The notes under the pieces were generated by a model. That model did no database searches. It was not told the origin of the DNA and worked only from the letters and a program-made list of their open reading frames with translations. The translations under genes were made by a program, and so were the position numbers. From a virus, in the IMG/VR virus record IMGVR_UViG_3300034142_000023, positions 1 through 20,812 of that record: a stretch of 20,812 nt of DNA, one strand, 5' to 3'. Shown here piece by piece: positions 3,374 to 19,426 of this stretch (position 1 is its first letter; each line of letters opens with the position of its first letter).

Positions 3374-4231
3374 ATGGATTCAATGGGTGGGGTTTTTGAT
3401 AACTCAGGTACATTTTCAAATTGGCTATCAGACCCGATGGACTTGTCTGGCGAGCGAGGAGGAAAAACAGCGGCGGCGGCTCAAACACACGCAGCCAACC
3501 AAGCTGATGCTACTCTTCGTTACATGTATGACACTCAACGAAAAGACTTAGCGCCTTCTAGAGAGATGGGCTTAAGAGCTGCAGCGCAGATTGAAGATCC
3601 AAACTTCATGAAGAATTGGCAGAAAGATCCAGGTTACGAATTCCGCTTAGCTGAGGGTCAAAAGGCTATCAACGCATCAGCATCAGCGCGCGGTATGGGA
3701 AACTCAGGCGCTACCATGAAAGCACTCACGCAGTACGGACAAGATCACGCGACAAACGAATACAACAACGTTTACAATCGCAACTATCAGAGATTGTCAG
3801 GCTTAGCCGGAATCGGAAACGCATCAACTCAAACTGGAGTAGGTGCTGCTGGACAATTCGGAGCTGCTTCGTCATCTAATCAGATTGGTCTTGGCAACGC
3901 GATGGCAGCTCAGCAAGTGGCGCAGACTGCTGGAAAACAACAGATGGCTGGAGCTATTGGCGGCGCGATATTCTCGGACTCTCGATTAAAAACTAACCTC
4001 GAAGAAATCTCAGCTACAGATCTTGCTGAAATGCAAAAGCATCTTAAAGCATACGCATTCAATTACACCTCTGCTGAGTTCGGTGACGGCGACTGGGTCG
4101 GCGTTATGGCTCAGGATTTAGAGAAATCAAAGCTCGGTCGCACACTTGTTATCGAAGATGAGTTTGGAAATAAGACTATCGATCAAAAGAAAGTTCTCTC
4201 TATGTTCCTCGCAACTCTGGCGGTGAAGTAA
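3374..4231 (+). CDS. gp7-like DNA ejection protein with C-terminal S74-type autoprocessing domain
   Basis: A 285-residue protein. Residues about 60-150 (APSREMGLRAAA, DPGYEFRLAEGQKAIN, SARGMGNSGATMKALTQYGQ, EYNNVYNRNYQRLSGLAGIG) match the pattern of podoviral ejection/DNA-transfer proteins of the P22 gp7 type, which leave the virion and help DNA cross the envelope. An Ala/Gly/Gln-rich stretch (150-199) leads to SDSRLKTNLEEI at 201-212, and VGVMAQDLEKS plus a short DQKKVLSMFLATLA helix complete it. This is the layout of an S74 intramolecular chaperone, which in other proteins cleaves itself between Ser and Asp (here S201/D202). The ATG at 3374 has AAGGGAGA upstream. Its stop overlaps the next ATG. 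Finding S74 on an ejection protein rather than a fibre is less usual, though I believe it is known. Confidence 0.7.
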   Translation: MDSMGGVFDNSGTFSNWLSDPMDLSGERGGKTAAAAQTHAANQADATLRYMYDTQRKDLAPSREMGLRAAAQIEDPNFMKNWQKDPGYEFRLAEGQKAINASASARGMGNSGATMKALTQYGQDHATNEYNNVYNRNYQRLSGLAGIGNASTQTGVGAAGQFGAASSSNQIGLGNAMAAQQVAQTAGKQQMAGAIGGAIFSDSRLKTNLEEISATDLAEMQKHLKAYAFNYTSAEFGDGDWVGVMAQDLEKSKLGRTLVIEDEFGNKTIDQKKVLSMFLATLAVK

Positions 4232-5328
4232 TGGCTCAATTAGACAGTAGTATTTATTTTCAAGGCCAAGGCGCGCTTGCAAGGGGATTTGAGCAGGGCT
4301 TGTCTATGGCAGATATGATGCAGAAAAGAAAAGCTGCACAAGCTGCGACTGAGCGAGAGTCAGGCATGGAGAAAGCTTACGCTGCAGGGCTCGTAACCGG
4401 ACCTGACGGCGTTGCAACTTACGATGGCACAAAGACAATGTCAGCACTCGCTGGCGGTGGCTTCGGGAAAGAGGCAGCTGCTTTTGATAAGAATCTGAAA
4501 GCTGATCAAGCGGTTCAATCTAAAGCGAAAATGGAAAAGCAGTTGCAGCAGATCGATATCACTTCCCGGTTGTTGGGTTCTGTAAAAGATCAGCAGTCAT
4601 ATGACTTCGCAAAAACGGAGGCTGCAAAATACGGAATTCCTGTCGAAGGAATGCCGATGACTTACGATCCAAAACAGATCGAGTTCATGGCAGGCCAAGC
4701 TCTTACGATGAAAGATCGCATCAGCAATCAGTTCCAACAACAAGCTGCAGAAAGAGACGAGAGACGGGTCAGTATTGCTGAAAGAGAGTCACGTAATAAG
4801 TCAGCAAGCGGCGAGAAGCTCCCGATTGATAAAAAGAAATTCGTTGAAGCTCTTTCTTCTAAGAACGCAAGCAAGGCTTCAATCAAAAGTCAGATCGATG
4901 CGGTTATGTCTAATTGGGATAATCTATCAGAAGATCAGAAGGTTTCTCAGGGTGGGCAATTACTTAAGACTTTGAACTCTGCCGAAGGAGCTGATGCTAT
5001 CGGGGTTGAAGAGGCAAAGCGTCTCGGATCTAAATTAGAATTCGCATACGGAAACTTTAGAAACTCCAACCCAACTCAGTTCGGACGCGATCTCGATGGT
5101 TTCAAGGAGCAAGCGCGATTAACATCTGAAGCAATTGGAAAGTCTGTACAGACCAACCAGGCTCAAGTTGACGAAGCGATGGGTCGCAAGTCTGCTGCAA
5201 AACCTCAGACACAAGCCCCTCACAATGAAGCTGTAATGTGGGCTCATAATAATCCGAAAGATCCAAGATCTGCAGAAATCTTAAAACGAAATGGAATTAA
5301 GCCTGGCACAGCTCAGGGGGGCTTGTAA
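4231..5328 (+). CDS. Probable internal virion / DNA ejection protein (gp20-like position)
   Basis: A 365-residue, Ala/Gln/Lys-rich, mostly helical protein with no signal peptide or membrane segment. It opens with a FQGQGALARGFEQGLSMADM segment (residues 10-29) of the kind seen at the start of podoviral internal proteins. Coiled, highly charged helices occupy the middle (about 165-190, AAERDERRVSIAERESRNK). It ends with EAVMWAHNNPKDPRSAEILKRNG, a short W-A-x-x-N-P-x-D-P-R motif that recurs in phage internal proteins. It lies between a gp7-like and a gp16-like gene with one-base overlaps on both sides (TAATG), the slot of P22 gp20. Shorter than P22 gp20. The role in DNA delivery is inferred from composition and position. 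Confidence 0.55.
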   Translation: MAQLDSSIYFQGQGALARGFEQGLSMADMMQKRKAAQAATERESGMEKAYAAGLVTGPDGVATYDGTKTMSALAGGGFGKEAAAFDKNLKADQAVQSKAKMEKQLQQIDITSRLLGSVKDQQSYDFAKTEAAKYGIPVEGMPMTYDPKQIEFMAGQALTMKDRISNQFQQQAAERDERRVSIAERESRNKSASGEKLPIDKKKFVEALSSKNASKASIKSQIDAVMSNWDNLSEDQKVSQGGQLLKTLNSAEGADAIGVEEAKRLGSKLEFAYGNFRNSNPTQFGRDLDGFKEQARLTSEAIGKSVQTNQAQVDEAMGRKSAAKPQTQAPHNEAVMWAHNNPKDPRSAEILKRNGIKPGTAQGGL

Positions 5329-7082
5329 TGGGTTTCGATCCTGATGCATACCTAAAGCAGACTCAAGCGCCAACACAGGGTTTTGATCCCGACGCGTACT
5401 TAAAAGAAACTGCTGCTCCGGTCCAAAAAGAATCTGGCGGTGTTTCTGCCGTTCGTAAAGCTGTCCAGGGGGCCACTGCGGGGTTTTCGGACGAACTTGC
5501 TGGCGGAGTTGAGGCGATCGGACAAGCGCTAGGTAAAAAGGGTGCTGGCGGCGCATACAAAGATATCGCTGACGACGACCGGGGCCCAACGCTCGACTGG
5601 GAAGTGTTGCGAGATGCTTACAAGCGTGGGCGTGATCGAGAGCGTGATGTCCTTAAGAAAGACTCTAAAGACAATCCTAAGATATCGGCTGTCGCTGAGC
5701 TCGGCGGAACTTTAATCTCGCCTGTTAATAAAATCATGCCTGGGGCTTCGATCGTAAAGCAAGGAGCTGCGAGCGGTGCAATTATGGCCGCTGGCGGAAG
5801 CGAAGCCGAATCGGTTGGTAAACTCGCTGCTGATACAGCGGCGGGAGGAATCTTCGGAGCCGGTCTTGGCAAAGCAGCGCAAGTAGCTTCCCCACTAATT
5901 CAAAAGGGCGTAAGCAAAGTCGGGTCTGCTGCAGGAGATTTAGCCGAACGCTTCGGAGTGCGCGCGCTCGGTGGAGAGCGAGCAACCATAGACAAACTCG
6001 GTATAAAAAAGTCTAAAGAGGCAGCACGACAAGCGATCGACGAAGGGATCTTTAAATTATCTGAATCGACCGAAGATCTTGCGCGTAAGAACGCAGCAGT
6101 AAAAGCTCGCGGCGGCAAGATGATGGGCGATGTTTACGATCAGATCGATGCTCAGGGAGCAAGTACTTTCAACCCTCAGAAAGTAGCTGAGAAAGTTAAT
6201 GAAGAAGTCGGCGGATTTTGGAGAAGCGCAATCAATAAGGGTGAGACCAAGCAGTTTGAAAACACGCTCGAGTCTATCCTCGTTCGGGGCGAATCTAACA
6301 TCCCGATGCGTGAGGCTCAGGCGCTAAAGAACGAGATCGACAAAGTAGCGAACTGGAAAAGCAAAAACCCTCCAACTGACAAAGAGCAGATTGCCAGAAG
6401 TGCAGTCGAAATTATTAAGAATACAATCGATGAATCTGCTGCCGCTGGAGCTGAAACTATCGGTACTAAAGGACTTAAAGAAGCACTTGATCAGGGAAGA
6501 AAGCTCTACGGCAACGCTAGCACTGCTGGAACCTTTATTAAAAATAAAGTGAGCCGCGAAGCTGGGAATAATCTGATGGGTCTCACTGATTGGATCGCAG
6601 CATCTGGAGCTGGCTCTTACGGAGCTGCAACCGGCGATGTCGAAGGTGCCGCAGCTGCATTTCTGGCTAAAAAGGGTTTACAGAAATACGGGCTTAAAGC
6701 AGCTACACTCGGTTTCGATAAAGTTTCGAAGGCTCTTGCGAAAGCGCCGGAATTTGCGGCGCTCTTAGAGAAAAACCCTGCAGCATTTAATGCAATCGTT
6801 AAGAAGTTTGAAGCCCCAGGTGCTATTGAAAGGTTTCTTCCTAAAGCCGCAGAGAATGACGATCCGCCAACTAAAGGCCCACAGAAATGGGCTAACGACG
6901 GTATCGAGATGATCTTGAAATCAGATCAGTCAGATATCGATCGCGAGACTTTAGAGAAATTAAAAGAAACCAAGCGCGGACAGATGCTTTTAGAAGAGGC
7001 GTCGAGCGCGAAGAATAAAAAAGCCATGGAATCAGTACTCAAAAAAATCAGATCAGCATCATCATCGAAGGGGGCCGAGTAA
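5328..7082 (+). CDS. Probable large DNA ejection protein (gp16-like position) with N-terminal FDPDAYLK repeats
   Basis: A 584-residue protein. Its first 26 residues hold two exact copies of GFDPDAYLK (2-10 and 18-26), a short repeat often seen at the start of phage internal proteins. A hydrophobic, Gly/Ala-rich region follows (about 130-195: GGTLISPVNKIMPGAS, AASGAIMAAGG, AAGGIFGAGLGKAAQVA), which could insert into membrane. The central part is charged and helical (200-400). A second small Gly/Ala patch (around 425-450, DWIAASGAGSYGAATGD) and a Lys-rich helical C-terminus complete it. Its length is close to that of P22 gp16, and the position after the gp7-like and gp20-like genes agrees. I infer that it is ejected with the genome and helps form the trans-envelope conduit; there is no enzymatic motif that I recognise. 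Confidence 0.6.
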   Translation: MGFDPDAYLKQTQAPTQGFDPDAYLKETAAPVQKESGGVSAVRKAVQGATAGFSDELAGGVEAIGQALGKKGAGGAYKDIADDDRGPTLDWEVLRDAYKRGRDRERDVLKKDSKDNPKISAVAELGGTLISPVNKIMPGASIVKQGAASGAIMAAGGSEAESVGKLAADTAAGGIFGAGLGKAAQVASPLIQKGVSKVGSAAGDLAERFGVRALGGERATIDKLGIKKSKEAARQAIDEGIFKLSESTEDLARKNAAVKARGGKMMGDVYDQIDAQGASTFNPQKVAEKVNEEVGGFWRSAINKGETKQFENTLESILVRGESNIPMREAQALKNEIDKVANWKSKNPPTDKEQIARSAVEIIKNTIDESAAAGAETIGTKGLKEALDQGRKLYGNASTAGTFIKNKVSREAGNNLMGLTDWIAASGAGSYGAATGDVEGAAAAFLAKKGLQKYGLKAATLGFDKVSKALAKAPEFAALLEKNPAAFNAIVKKFEAPGAIERFLPKAAENDDPPTKGPQKWANDGIEMILKSDQSDIDRETLEKLKETKRGQMLLEEASSAKNKKAMESVLKKIRSASSSKGAE

Positions 7083-12550: not shown

Positions 12551-13249
12551 TTAGAAGCTATATTTTAAGTTCAACTGAAGTCCGCCCGAATACCCAGTTC
12601 CATAGTCGTAAGCATACGCGCCAGCAGTTGAAGTTGCCGTTACACCAACAATGCGGTTCAAAACTTCCACACTTACTCGCTCAGAAGCTTGAAACCCGCC
12701 GCCGAATTGTGCGCCAAGAGCTCCGCCTACCGAAAGTGTCCCCACAGCATCAGCGCTTCTATTAAAGGTGGGTATTGAGTAATTTAAACCGAAAGGGAGA
12801 TAGAACTTTCCCCATCGATACATGGCATTTGCATATAACAAAACAAAGCTGAATGTCGGCTTTAAAACATAGACTCCGGATCCAGAAGTTCCGTTCAAAG
12901 TAAGGTTCATCGAATTGATTTTTCTCTCGCTATCATAAGACGCCCCAGCAGACCATCCCCAGTCGTTTGATTCTGACTGAGTGAAATCTATCCCTAGCCC
13001 CGCAGCGCTATCCGAATTCATTGTCATACTTCCAGTGCCAGATAAGTTTCCTGCGGTGGCGGTGATGTTTTTGAACTCAATCTTACTAGCAGAGCTCACT
13101 AGGGCGTAAACCGAAATTTTGATAGGAGAAGCAGCTTTTATCGGCTCGACTGCTGCGGGTGCGAGCGGGGCGGGCGTTGACTGTGGGGCTACATCTTGAG
13201 CAAGTGCGAATTCACAAACAGTAAGCAGAGCCATTATAAAAAGCTTCAT
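12551..13249 (-). CDS. Outer-membrane beta-barrel protein (phage-carried conversion gene)
   Basis: A 232-residue protein. The start is the ATG at 13249 (reverse strand), with GGAGG a few bases upstream; a longer start would disrupt the signal peptide. Residues 1-17 are a Sec signal (KLFIMALLTVCEFALAQ). A Pro/Ala-rich linker follows (PQSTPAPLAPAAVEP), then alternating strands such as DWGWSAGASYDSE, FVLLYANAMYRWGKFYLPFGLNY and GYSGGLQLNLKYSF. The final Phe after alternating hydrophobic residues is the standard beta-barrel assembly signal. The size suits an 8-stranded barrel, like phage-encoded Lom/Cor-type surface proteins. It is opposite to the late genes and downstream of the repressor and an XRE gene, so expression in the lysogen is likely. 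Possible roles: receptor masking/superinfection exclusion or altered surface adhesion. No terminator fits between it and the lysis gene. Confidence 0.7.
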   Translation of the reverse strand: MKLFIMALLTVCEFALAQDVAPQSTPAPLAPAAVEPIKAASPIKISVYALVSSASKIEFKNITATAGNLSGTGSMTMNSDSAAGLGIDFTQSESNDWGWSAGASYDSERKINSMNLTLNGTSGSGVYVLKPTFSFVLLYANAMYRWGKFYLPFGLNYSIPTFNRSADAVGTLSVGGALGAQFGGGFQASERVSVEVLNRIVGVTATSTAGAYAYDYGTGYSGGLQLNLKYSF

Positions 13250-13346
13250 CAATCCTCCGGTATACCTATGGGGTTGCATGAATTATGCCGTGTTTATAGC
13301 GCTCGTGATAGAGTAAACTGCCCACAGTCTAGTCATGTGACGATGA

Positions 13347-14088: not shown

Positions 14089-14722
14089 TGTGAGCTTCGA
14101 AGGCTTTTAGACGCTCAAATTCTAGGGTGTCCACGGATGGACCGCTATTAAGCAAGTTGTTTTGGACCTTTTGTAGCTTCTCAGCATCTTTATCAATTTG
14201 CGCCGTCAGCTTTGGAGCTGGGCTCTGGTGGAAAGTGCGCTCCCCCGACGATGCTGCTGCCGACCGAATAAGATCTGGAGTTAGGGACATCCCAAGAACT
14301 TGACCCACAGTAAGCTCCGACATCGTTTTTAAAAGGCTTGTGAGAGCAGGCCCATCCAAATCGTCAATCTTCAATTTATCCGCACGTTCGCTTTGGAATT
14401 TTGACCAAGCTTCGACGTTTTTCCTGTTGAATTCTTCTGCCCATTTCTTTAGCACCTGGGGATCGCTGCCATCTATGAACTCCCCTTTTGCATCCAGCTC
14501 GAGGCCAAAAGATTCCGGCTGAGTGAGTTGCCAAACTTCGCAACCTAAAGCCTTCGCAATTGTAGCCCGGCTTTCCGGAGTACCTTCGGATAGGCCTCTC
14601 TCGATATTTTTGATCGTGTTAACATGGAAACCACAAATTTCTGCCAACTGCTCTTGATTCAAATTCAGAGCTTTTCGCCTTTTTGCAATGTTTATGGCCA
14701 GCAGCGGCTTTTCGGTTTTCAT
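13907..14722 (-). CDS. Phage repressor-like HTH regulator without peptidase domain
   Basis: A 271-residue protein. I start at the ATG at 14722; a longer frame to 14953 would run across the operator region and the Cro-like gene. Residues about 9-62 are an XRE-type HTH: INIAKRRKALNLNQEQLAEICGFHVNTIKNIERG, then ATIAKALGCEVWQL. The remaining 200 residues are charged and helical (KKWAEEFNRKNVEAWSKFQ; LQKVQNNLLNSGPSVDTLEF) and end in a disordered RPGAPPRAQNPTQ / Lys-Ser-rich tail. There is no Ser/Lys S24 peptidase domain, so induction would not be through RecA-stimulated self-cleavage as in lambda CI. It is divergent from a Cro-like gene with operator-like repeats between them, so it is the likely lysogeny repressor. 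The helical part may mediate oligomers or bind an antirepressor. Confidence 0.65.
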   Translation of the reverse strand: MKTEKPLLAINIAKRRKALNLNQEQLAEICGFHVNTIKNIERGLSEGTPESRATIAKALGCEVWQLTQPESFGLELDAKGEFIDGSDPQVLKKWAEEFNRKNVEAWSKFQSERADKLKIDDLDGPALTSLLKTMSELTVGQVLGMSLTPDLIRSAAASSGERTFHQSPAPKLTAQIDKDAEKLQKVQNNLLNSGPSVDTLEFERLKAFEAHIRDLGGQDLVEALSRMNRATVGRIRAGAGLSTSRPGAPPRAQNPTQETLEQSLAKKKSSS

Positions 14723-16453: not shown

Positions 16454-16588
16454 ATGGAATTAGATGGAATATGCCCTGACTGTAAAGAGTGGACTGTCGC
16501 AGGAGATTCATGCTGCGGGCGTGGAGCGATGGTTTGCGGAATCATTATTGATGACGAGACCGCGCAAGAAATGACGGAGGACGTATGA
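16454..16588 (+). CDS. 44-residue zinc-finger-like microprotein
   Basis: A short frame starting at ATG 16454 with AGGGGT just upstream and ending in TGA that overlaps the next ATG (ATGA). It has CPDC near the start (residues 7-10), then CC (20-21) and another Cys (28), a pattern that could form a small zinc knuckle (C-x2-C...C-C/C). It then has an acidic tail (IIIDDETAQEMTEDV). Coupling by ATGA and a real binding site support that it is translated. Similar zinc-ribbon microproteins are common in phage early regions. Function unknown. Confidence 0.55.
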   Translation: MELDGICPDCKEWTVAGDSCCGRGAMVCGIIIDDETAQEMTEDV

Positions 16589-16785
16589 CACGCGAAGAAC
16601 AGCTTGCGCTTTTATTCAATCGCTACAAGCAGCTAAAAGCCATGAAAGATGCAGTACCTGAGAGTCCCATCGTAGCAAATGAATACTTTGCCAGATCTGC
16701 TGCTGTCTTAGAAAAGGTCTTTGAAGTGATCGGGCTCAAGAAACCAGAAGATGATTTTGAATTTAAGGATTTGAATCAAGGTTAA
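16585..16785 (+). CDS. Small hypothetical early protein
   Basis: A 66-residue, helical, charged protein (REEQLALLFNRYKQLKAMKDA; SAAVLEKVFEVIGLKK). Its ATG at 16585 follows ACGGAGG and overlaps the microprotein stop. It is the last gene before the structured-RNA region, and its stop overlaps an ATG that opens a 27-codon frame through that region. No family recognised. Confidence 0.55.
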   Translation: MTREEQLALLFNRYKQLKAMKDAVPESPIVANEYFARSAAVLEKVFEVIGLKKPEDDFEFKDLNQG

Positions 16786-16790
16786 TGTTT

Positions 16791-16973
16791 ACCCTGCTCG
16801 GCGCTTTGCTTTCTAGGATGGGCTTAGAGGGCACTGAGGGTGTGGCAACAATCCGCCGGGCGGGGTGATTCAATTTAGATATTTTGCCCCGCTGGTGCTT
16901 TGCAGTTTTGGGATGGGCCTGGGACGCATTGAACGATTTATTAATTAAGAACCTCTGGCGGGGCTATTTTTAG
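16791..16973 (+). ncRNA. Tandem structured RNA element with terminator-like end (candidate attenuator/riboswitch/PUT)
   Basis: Two similar folds lie in a row. Copy 1 (16791-16866): closing helix ACCCTGCTCGGCG (16791-16803) pairs with CGCCGGGCGGGGT (16854-16866), 13 bp with two G-U pairs. An inner 9-bp hairpin 16807-16815 / 16825-16833 has loop GGATGGGCT. Copy 2 (16886-16964): closing helix GCCCCGCTGG (16886-16895) pairs with CTGGCGGGGC (16955-16964), 10 bp. An inner hairpin 16901-16910 / 16920-16928 (one bulged A at 16904) has loop GGATGGGCC. The joining bases are alike (GCTT before and YTGA after the hairpin). Six inner base pairs change between copies yet all still pair. Copy 2 ends in CTATTTTT, terminator-like. 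The copies can instead pair with each other: GCGGGGT (16860-16866) with GCCCCGC (16886-16892), removing both closing helices. The 16785 frame (27 codons) is an alternative reading. Confidence 0.6.
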
Positions 16974-16981
16974 GGGGAAGA

Positions 16982-17224
16982 ATGAACGTAATCAGAGAAC
17001 TGAGACACGCAGCGAATATGTCACAAGGGGATGTTGCAAAGAAGATGGGTTACTCGAGTCCACAATTCGTTAGTAACTGGGAACGCGGGCTTTCAATGCC
17101 TCCGCCGGGATCAGTTAGGAAACTAGCCAAGGTGTTAGGTTCTGAGGACTTCGAGGATAAGTATATCGAGCACGCTGCGACTCTTCACATAGAAGATTTG
17201 AAAACTAAGATTCGGGGGAAATAA
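16982..17224 (+). CDS. XRE-family HTH regulator downstream of the RNA element
   Basis: An 80-residue protein with a textbook XRE HTH: IRELRHAANMSQGDVAKKMGYSSPQFVSNWERGLSMPP (4-41), then VRKLAKVLGSEDF. The ATG at 16982 has a strong AGGGGGAAG right after the T-tract of the RNA element, so its expression would be governed by read-through. The C-terminal tail is short and charged. It is the first of four coupled genes leading to the integrase, so it may regulate integration or excision. Its stop overlaps the next ATG. Confidence 0.7.
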   Translation: MNVIRELRHAANMSQGDVAKKMGYSSPQFVSNWERGLSMPPPGSVRKLAKVLGSEDFEDKYIEHAATLHIEDLKTKIRGK

Positions 17225-17856
17225 TGGGACAACACTTGAAGGCAGTTCTTTATAGTCGGACCGGGTTTCCGGACCTGCTAACTCCAAAAGAGGCTGCTGA
17301 TATTTGTAAGATTAGTGAGGATCGACTCATGACCCTTGCAAAGACGCGGCACGCTCCTTGTGCTGTATTGGACGACGACCAATACTTCTTTTTCAAGAAA
17401 GATATTTGTGAGTGGGTTAAGGCAAACCTGCTTGAAATCAATGACGGAAAGAGAATTCAAGTAGAGCTTAAGATTCTAGGCGATGTGGCGGCGGACCCAA
17501 TGGGAATCCCTGAGGCTCTGCGACCTTTAAGTAAGAAACTGAAAAAGGTAACATTCAGCGAGTCGGGGCCTTGCGTATATTTTTTAATCGAAAAAACCGA
17601 AGTGGTTTATGTCGGGCAGAGCGTAAACTTATTATCCCGAGTAGGGTCTCATGTATTGGATAAAAAGTTCGATCACGTCGTTTATCTATCGTTGCCAGAG
17701 GAGGTTTTGGCCGATATCGAGACCGCTTTGATTAAACACCTAAAACCAAAATTCAATCGATCCCAAAATTGCGGAACTACCGATGGTTGGCATCATCATA
17801 ATTTAAGAAGAATCGGATTACTACAAGCAGAGTTAGAGGTAGCAAATGGCAACTAA
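17224..17856 (+). CDS. HTH / GIY-YIG nuclease fusion
   Basis: A 210-residue protein. Residues about 18-68 (LLTPKEAADICKISEDRLMTLAKTRHAPC..., DDQYFFFKKDICEWVKANL) read as a MerR/excisionase-like HTH. Residues 115-180 form a GIY-YIG nuclease domain: GPCVYFLIE (116-123, the GIY position), VVYVGQSVNLLSRVGSH (127-143, the YIG position, with candidate catalytic Arg139 and His143), then DIETALIKHLKPKFN (164-178, candidate metal-binding Glu166 and the usual PKFN end). It ends with a His-rich stretch (GWHHHNL). GIY-YIG domains nick or cut DNA in homing, repair or restriction. The HTH likely targets it. It is coupled on both sides (TAATG, and an 11-base overlap with the following excisionase-like gene). 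Confidence 0.7.
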   Translation: MGQHLKAVLYSRTGFPDLLTPKEAADICKISEDRLMTLAKTRHAPCAVLDDDQYFFFKKDICEWVKANLLEINDGKRIQVELKILGDVAADPMGIPEALRPLSKKLKKVTFSESGPCVYFLIEKTEVVYVGQSVNLLSRVGSHVLDKKFDHVVYLSLPEEVLADIETALIKHLKPKFNRSQNCGTTDGWHHHNLRRIGLLQAELEVANGN

Positions 17857-18028
17857 GAAGTGGATTTCGACTAGAGAAGCGGGCGAAGAAATTTGTAGAT
17901 CAGCGCGTACCGTTCAAGACTATTGCAAGGCTGGCAAGATTCCAGCTGAGCGCTTCGGACGATACTACATGATCGAAAAGAAAGTCTGGGAAGAGTGGAA
18001 AGCCCGGAACTTCGTTAAAGCATCATAA
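17846..18028 (+). CDS. Excisionase-like small HTH protein
   Basis: A 60-residue protein composed of a winged MerR-type HTH (helix-turn-helix class HTH_17): WISTREAGEEICRSARTVQDYCKAGKIPAERFGRYYMIEKKVWEEW (about 6-51). The R-x-V-Q-D-Y-x-K-x-G-K-I-P-A turn is typical of excisionases. It lies immediately upstream of the integrase, the usual place for Xis. Its ATG at 17846 overlaps the end of the fusion gene by 11 bases. It should bend DNA and bias Int toward excision; binding sites are probably the repeats downstream of int. Confidence 0.7.
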   Translation: MATKKWISTREAGEEICRSARTVQDYCKAGKIPAERFGRYYMIEKKVWEEWKARNFVKAS

Positions 18029-19170: not shown

Positions 19171-19426
19171 TTGTACCGGATTTGTACCGGATTCATCATG
19201 CGAAAAACCGCAAGATCCCGCTATCACTGACAAAAATCAAAATACCAGTTGGTCTTGTACAGACCACCAATCCTTTTCTTTTAACCCAGGATCTCCGTAC
19301 TTAAGTGTATTGAAATCACTGGGTTTTTTCATGCCCAAAACCCATAAAACCTACTTTCGCATCTTACGCCTCAGCGCGAATATAAGCGTAGAGCGCCGTT
19401 TTGAATGTTTCGGATTTGTACCGGAT
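19171..19426. repeat. Three exact 11-bp repeats flanking the putative att core
   Basis: TTGTACCGGAT occurs in tandem at 19171-19181 and 19182-19192, and again at 19416-19426. The shared context extends to CGGATTTGTACCGGAT (16 bases; 19177-19192 and 19411-19426). The first pair lies 17 bases after the int stop. A related TTGTACAGA (19255-19263) sits between them. They are probably integrase arm-type or excisionase binding sites. Confidence 0.6.
19283..19329 (+). terminator. Terminator-like hairpin downstream of int
   Basis: AACCCAG (19283-19289) pairs with CTGGGTT (19319-19325), followed by more T (run of six at 19324-19329). The loop is long (29 bases) and contains the palindrome ACTTAAGT (19299-19306). 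It would end the int transcript, or might be part of the attachment core, since att cores often contain such sequences. Weak as a classical terminator because of loop size. Confidence 0.4.

Follow-up and report, generated by a model that had tools for sequence, protein, structure and literature searches.

In lambdoid phages, int is controlled from the early transcript by sib/RNase III retroregulation and tL terminators, and RNase III sites lie between the early genes of phage T7. The P4 CI and P1 c4 immunity RNAs carry repeated complementary segments that cause an early stop of transcription; their C4 family is part of Rfam. How integrase and excisionase are dosed in temperate phages outside the lambda family is, to our knowledge, poorly known. 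The put RNA of phage HK022 is ~70 nt in all and consists of two adjacent stem-loops (PMC9378689); it lies shortly after the early promoters PL/PR, at a distance of 0 to about 270 nt. We compared such systems with a structured RNA element located 5' of the excisionase and integrase genes in a window of 20,812 bases (the whole stretch of DNA that was analysed, and an entire IMG/VR virus record).

The window covers a fragment of a temperate phage. P22-type virion genes (head-tail adaptor, packaged-DNA stabilisation/head closure protein, DNA-ejection protein) occupy its left part. The right part is the early region, in which a repressor-like gene is on the - strand and the remaining genes run rightward: a cro-like gene, the gene of a 105-aa protein, that of a Sak4/AAA_24-like protein and two small genes precede the RNA element, and genes for an XRE protein, an HTH_17/GIY-YIG protein, an excisionase-like HTH_17 protein, a tyrosine integrase and a DnaD-like replication protein follow it. 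Elsewhere in the window, a GC-rich hairpin GAGCGGGGGCC..GTGCCCCGCTC with a pyrimidine-rich tail (211-247) stands directly after the first ORF and is terminator-like, and the product encoded at 12551-13279 (- strand) resembles a signal-peptide outer-membrane beta-barrel protein and is without a PHROGs match. Positions 6841-6960, in a 584-aa structural ORF, and 17281-17400, in the GIY-YIG gene, are far more stably folded than shuffled sequence (z ~-3.5). Protein-guided scans gave four related phages in which the operon ends in the same way (L140/G001, L144/G002, L145/G003 and L123/G004), and a non-coding stretch is present at the place of the element in 4/4 of them. The features of the locus are given below; the outer strands of the element are named a (from 16791), b (up to 16866), c (from 16886) and d (up to 16964, then UAUUUUU).

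16585..16785, + strand: preceding small early gene, 66 aa; the RNA element begins right after its stop codon
16785..16868, + strand: possible leader ORF, 27 aa, with a TAATG overlap with the preceding gene; spans unit 1; peptide not conserved in relatives
16791..16866, + strand: unit 1; outer helix 16791-16802/16855-16866, 12 bp
16807-16817/16823-16833, + strand: inner hairpin of unit 1, 11 bp; loop AUGGG at 16818-16822, then CUGA
16860..16866, + strand: strand b, GCGGGGU; partners 16791-16797 (unit 1) or strand c
16886..16964, + strand: unit 2; outer helix 16886-16895/16955-16964, 10 bp
16886..16892, + strand: strand c, GCCCCGC; partners strand d at 16958-16964 (terminator), strand b or, weakly, the ribosome site of the next gene
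16913-16917, + strand: loop AUGGG of the inner hairpin of unit 2, 11 bp with one bulged A; then UUGA
16955..16971, + strand: 3' arm of unit 2 and U-run, CTGGCGGGGC-UAUUUUU; intrinsic-terminator-like end
16982..17224, + strand: XRE-type DNA-binding protein; homologue 3' of the element in L123 and G002
17224..17856, + strand: HTH_17 and GIY-YIG protein; Pfam scores weak
17846..18028, + strand: excisionase-like HTH_17 protein; 65% identical in L140
18054..19154, + strand: tyrosine integrase; 74% identical in L140, 38-41% in L144 and L145, 27% in L123

We found that a single RNA fold, a hairpin nested inside an outer helix, occurs here in two diverged copies, at 16791-16866 and at 16886-16964. An earlier note on this DNA had placed two such copies here and had seen the second end in CTATTTTT, followed by the ribosome site of the XRE gene; both copies are present, and CTATTTTT stands directly after the second and adjoins that site. 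The hairpin it described is also kept in both copies, but its nine-base loop GGATGGGCY includes two closing pairs, and both loops fold as the pentaloop AUGGG on an 11-bp stem. On folding, the outer helix of unit 1 gains two further outer pairs. An attenuator calls for a stable helix and, between it and a gene, a U-run; this arrangement was found at 16955-16971 in the window and also in L140 and G003. The terminator pattern scan, with its loop limit of 8, is blind to the end of unit 2. Every unit is more stable when folded as the + strand than as the - strand (-42.2 versus -23.9 for unit 1), and each AUGGG unit contains 5-7 G-U pairs, which confine the fold to + strand RNA. The element is therefore RNA, and a DNA cruciform was rejected.

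Covariation between the copies, also claimed earlier, is borne out. All 21 comparable pairs are kept through the 13 substitutions at paired bases that separate the copies, with none broken. Ten of these pairs differ from copy to copy: a single side has changed in 7 of them, and both sides in 3 (U-G to G-C, C-G to G-U and A-U to G-C). When the 9 transitions and 4 transversions were placed randomly among the paired positions, no pair was lost in 4-6 of 200,000 trials (~2e-5), with the register and the bulge chosen by hand, which favours pairing somewhat. This randomisation and the recurrence of the loop described below are the independent tests of the fold. A hand-made four-row alignment (both window units, L123 and L140), in which 15/23 pairs change on both sides, has its rows placed so as to pair and is a description of the alignment, not an independent test. 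Compared with shuffled sequence, the stability of unit 1 is exceptional (z -4.3) and that of unit 2 alone is modest (z -1.6). For the whole tandem pair z is just -2.6, and coarse 120-nt windows do not single out the element, as windows elsewhere score lower. Together with the 27- and 29-aa ORFs that cross the region, these values would suit a duplicated coding sequence or random G-rich pairing. The pair retention (~2e-5), the loop that recurs at the same place and the failure of relatives to keep the peptides make such an origin very improbable. The earlier note had held that homologs keeping the amino-acid reading and losing the base pairs would speak against the element. This comparison was run in part: neither of the two peptide readings is kept in the relatives, the loop and pairs are kept in L123, and in L140 the architecture at least is kept. 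Conserved peptides were rejected on these grounds as the basis of the element.

Phage L123/G004 has, besides its 27% identical integrase, homologues of the cro, repressor and XRE genes of the window. Its sequence 5' of the XRE gene reads AAGCUGG-CGCGUCU-[GUCUGUCGAGC AUGGG GCUCGGUAGGC]-UGGC-UUGA-...-UCGGCUU, a layout that matches the window units in the AUGGG loop, the GCUGGYGC lead-in and the UUGA after the hairpin. In 424 kb of related and comparison phage sequence, read on both strands, 125 hairpins combine a 5-base loop with a stem of 11 bp or more, and the loop is AUGGG in 3 of them: the two window units and the L123 unit. A hairpin scan of 2.6 Mb likewise gave 3 AUGGG-loop hairpins. With a model built from the two window units only, L123 4818-4889 ranks second in 31 kb (13.9 bits, E 0.26), a match that is weak by itself and falls on the predicted spot and strand. 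We conclude that L123 probably holds the same unit as the window. No U-run was found after the L123 unit, so termination is not common to all carriers. Directly 5' of the L123 unit, an ORF at 4492-4782 consists of near-perfect short glycine/asparagine/tyrosine/aspartate repeats (GNGYGDG...), and between the unit and the XRE gene a hairpin at 4900-4930, CCATGGGTTCGAATCCCATCGG, resembles a tRNA T-arm (18.2 bits with the tRNA model, below the cut-off).

In L140/G001, two strong folds occupy the same place (z -4.7 and -4.2), the second with an AUGGG loop inside an outer helix ending in UUUUU. A search descriptor that combined the loop with the stem and the outer helix, drawn up once the L140 unit had been seen, found the window units, the L140 unit and three chance matches in 2.6 Mb, and nothing more. 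A held-out model of the window units and L123 did not find the L140 unit, and the likeness is therefore architectural, not demonstrably homologous; the motif itself is common to two or three phages only. In L140 a different gene comes right after the element, whose target is therefore not always the XRE gene.

The elements of the two phages with 38-41% identical integrases are strongly folded and terminator-like, their sequences are unrelated to that of the window, and the AUGGG motif is absent from both. In G002 (a contig whose ends overlap), the helix directly 5' of the XRE gene is interrupted, measures 22 bp, encloses two hairpins and is followed by CAACAAUUUUUG (z -5.0). At 3646-3732, L145/G003 has a textbook terminator, in which UUUU follows a perfect hairpin of 11 bp. 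The 5' arm of this hairpin doubles as the 3' arm of an upstream hairpin (-45 kcal/mol); the either/or pairing of arms is convincing here. A second terminator-like fold stands at the start of the G003 excisionase gene. The presence of unrelated folds at the same place suggests that the position before xis-int is under selection for an RNA roadblock.

Since G002 and G003 keep strong folds with unrelated sequence, the strongest rival to termination is an RNase III processing site, at which cleavage of the long helices (or protection of an end by them) would split the early message from that of XRE-xis-int and determine the stability of both. Long helices lie exactly in the gene gap in 4/5 phages with unrelated sequences, as expected if helix length is all that matters, and the L145 hairpin measures about 28 bp. 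However, the window helices are broken into pieces of 10-12 bp, the kept AUGGG loop and YUGA joint are not needed by RNase III, and the last helix is followed by a U-run in 4/5 phages. We consider a processing site unlikely.

The earlier note did not recognise the element as a known class, and this agrees with our searches: the 401-nt region has no match in Rfam 15, even at E 10, and blastn against 50,697 phage records (E up to 1) gave no relative of the element. Scans of IMG/VR for the GCTTTGC/GGATGGGCY pattern returned chance matches, and among the matches listed by the first scan none folds like the element; the strict pattern had no match in genome_contigs. No such RNA element was found with the XRE relatives L120-L122 and L124, the AAA-protein relatives L126-L134 gave no match to the element model, and the full records of the relatives held no further copies. 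The motif is new, there being no Rfam family and no deposited phage matched; its functional kind, a terminator or attenuator ahead of an integration module, is in principle familiar. On the 175-kb viral contig L120, ARAGORN calls two tRNA-Pyl (CTA) genes, at 110-183 and 1975-2051.

Relatives of the window integrase were found neither in deposited phages nor in genome_contigs, and deposited phages held none for the L123 integrase. For the L145 integrase, deposited phages gave distant integrases only. Plasmids gave distant integrases only. A 21-bp repeat 3' of int, TGTTTCGGATTTGTACCGGAT, is identical in the window and in L140 (9119-9139) and is a candidate attachment-site core. Its window copies are at 19406-19426 and 19172-19192, the second being imperfect. 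An attachment site was rejected for the RNA element, this shared repeat just after int being the better candidate.

Three ideas had been put forward in the earlier note: a cis-acting attenuator, a PUT-like antiterminator and a tandem riboswitch. A riboswitch sensing a small molecule would account for the tandem copies, the like joints and the kept loop. However, it would belong to no known class, the Rfam search having given no match, the joints are short and variable among relatives, the G002 and G003 sequences are unrelated, and an int operon would be an odd target. No ligand-core pattern was found, the recurring parts being just the AUGGG loop, GCUGGYGC and YUGA in two or three phages, with the other relatives differing. 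We consider a riboswitch highly improbable.

The position of the element bears on two further alternatives. It lies ~1.9-2 kb past the start of the cro-like gene, with a stop codon right before it and a ribosome site at its end. A PUT-like antiterminator, which would bind the elongation complex and confer resistance to later terminators, shares with it tandem hairpins within a phage early transcript. However, put lies near its early promoters and this element ~2 kb past the start of the cro-like gene, no clear terminator that would have to be overcome was found inside the XRE/GIY-YIG/xis/int run, and the units consist of one hairpin nested in an outer helix where put has two neighbouring hairpins. 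Neither two adjacent stem-loops nor similarity to a deposited put-bearing phage, or to any deposited phage, was found, and unit 2 ends in its own U-run. We regard antitermination of this type as highly improbable. Alternatively, the element might be a trans-acting small RNA of ~180 nt, formed of two tandem modules with their own terminator and transcribed from a promoter inside the preceding gene. The two modules plus U-run do resemble a transcript end, and the AUGGG loops are exposed and repeated. However, a pattern scan found no promoter-like site near 16700-16790, and the element is bounded by a stop codon and a ribosome site, as a cis element would be; a small RNA appears improbable. A search of the window for an antisense partner revealed, as the only long complement, 14347-14360 on the strand antisense to the repressor gene, which is within chance expectation by our estimate.

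A built-in switch had been proposed from the pairing of GCGGGGT (16860-16866) with GCCCCGC (16886-16892), that is, of strands b and c. Their complementarity is present (duplex energy -20.1 kcal/mol), but it comes automatically with the duplication, as two similar copies will always cross-pair, and it adds no separate evidence for a switch. The forced b-c state is ~7 kcal/mol less stable than the alternative (-66.4 versus -73.3). In a growing transcript, a-b is predicted to form first and c-d next, giving a terminator-like default. The predicted duplex of strand c with the XRE ribosome site has -13.0 kcal/mol. A b-c switch in the window is possible.

Overall, an attenuator is the best of the three earlier readings, because L140/G001 and G003/L145 have terminator-like folds at this place and G003 has the either/or pairing. 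We suggest, with a probability of about 0.45, that the element is a conditional terminator (attenuator) that restricts the share of early transcription extending into the excisionase and integrase genes. We infer termination, a switch and a trigger that would work as follows. The element would act in cis as a structured RNA within the rightward early transcript, between the early/recombination genes and the XRE-GIY-YIG-xis-int run. By default, unit 1 would close (a-b), then unit 2 (c-d), and the polymerase would stop at UAUUUUU. If unit 1 were kept open, b could pair with c, unit 2 could not close, and transcription and XRE translation would go on. Candidate openers of unit 1 are a protein that recognises the AUGGG hairpin, a translating or stalled ribosome and an antisense partner. 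As c may also pair with the XRE ribosome site, the freeing of d and the exposure of this site would coincide. The 27-aa ORF across unit 1 would permit a ribosome-controlled version, but its peptide is not kept in relatives; a protein reading the AUGGG loops is equally possible.

A wider proposal is that the element represents an undescribed phage RNA family, with a nested hairpin and a kept AUGGG loop in single or tandem form, serving as the sensor of a gate on xis-int transcription. The AUGGG loop would then bind a phage or host factor, and integration or excision would be decided at transcript elongation and not at the promoter. We consider this generalisation doubtful at present. If a structured RNA gate does operate here, it would be of use as a compact regulatory part and could point to the factor that binds it.

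With HK022 put, the element shares its nature as a phage early-transcript RNA and a tandem hairpin pair, at ~70-80 nt per unit. In contrast to put, its fold is nested, it has no sequence similarity, it ends in its own U-run, and it may lie further from a promoter. The P4 CI and P1 c4 RNAs are likewise phage RNAs with repeated complementary segments, whereas the window element has no C4 match in Rfam and no known antisense partner and lies outside the immunity region. As in lambdoid int control, an RNA structure beside int would set integrase yield from a long early transcript, but here the structure is 5' of xis-int and terminator-like, not a 3' processing site. Attenuators of the trp- or L10-leader style resemble the element in having alternative pairings that free or close a U-run hairpin before a gene and, possibly, a short leader ORF. 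They differ in that the window arms enclose a further AUGGG hairpin, come in two tandem copies and stand mid-operon, not at an operon start; the explicit version with a shared arm is seen in G003/L145.
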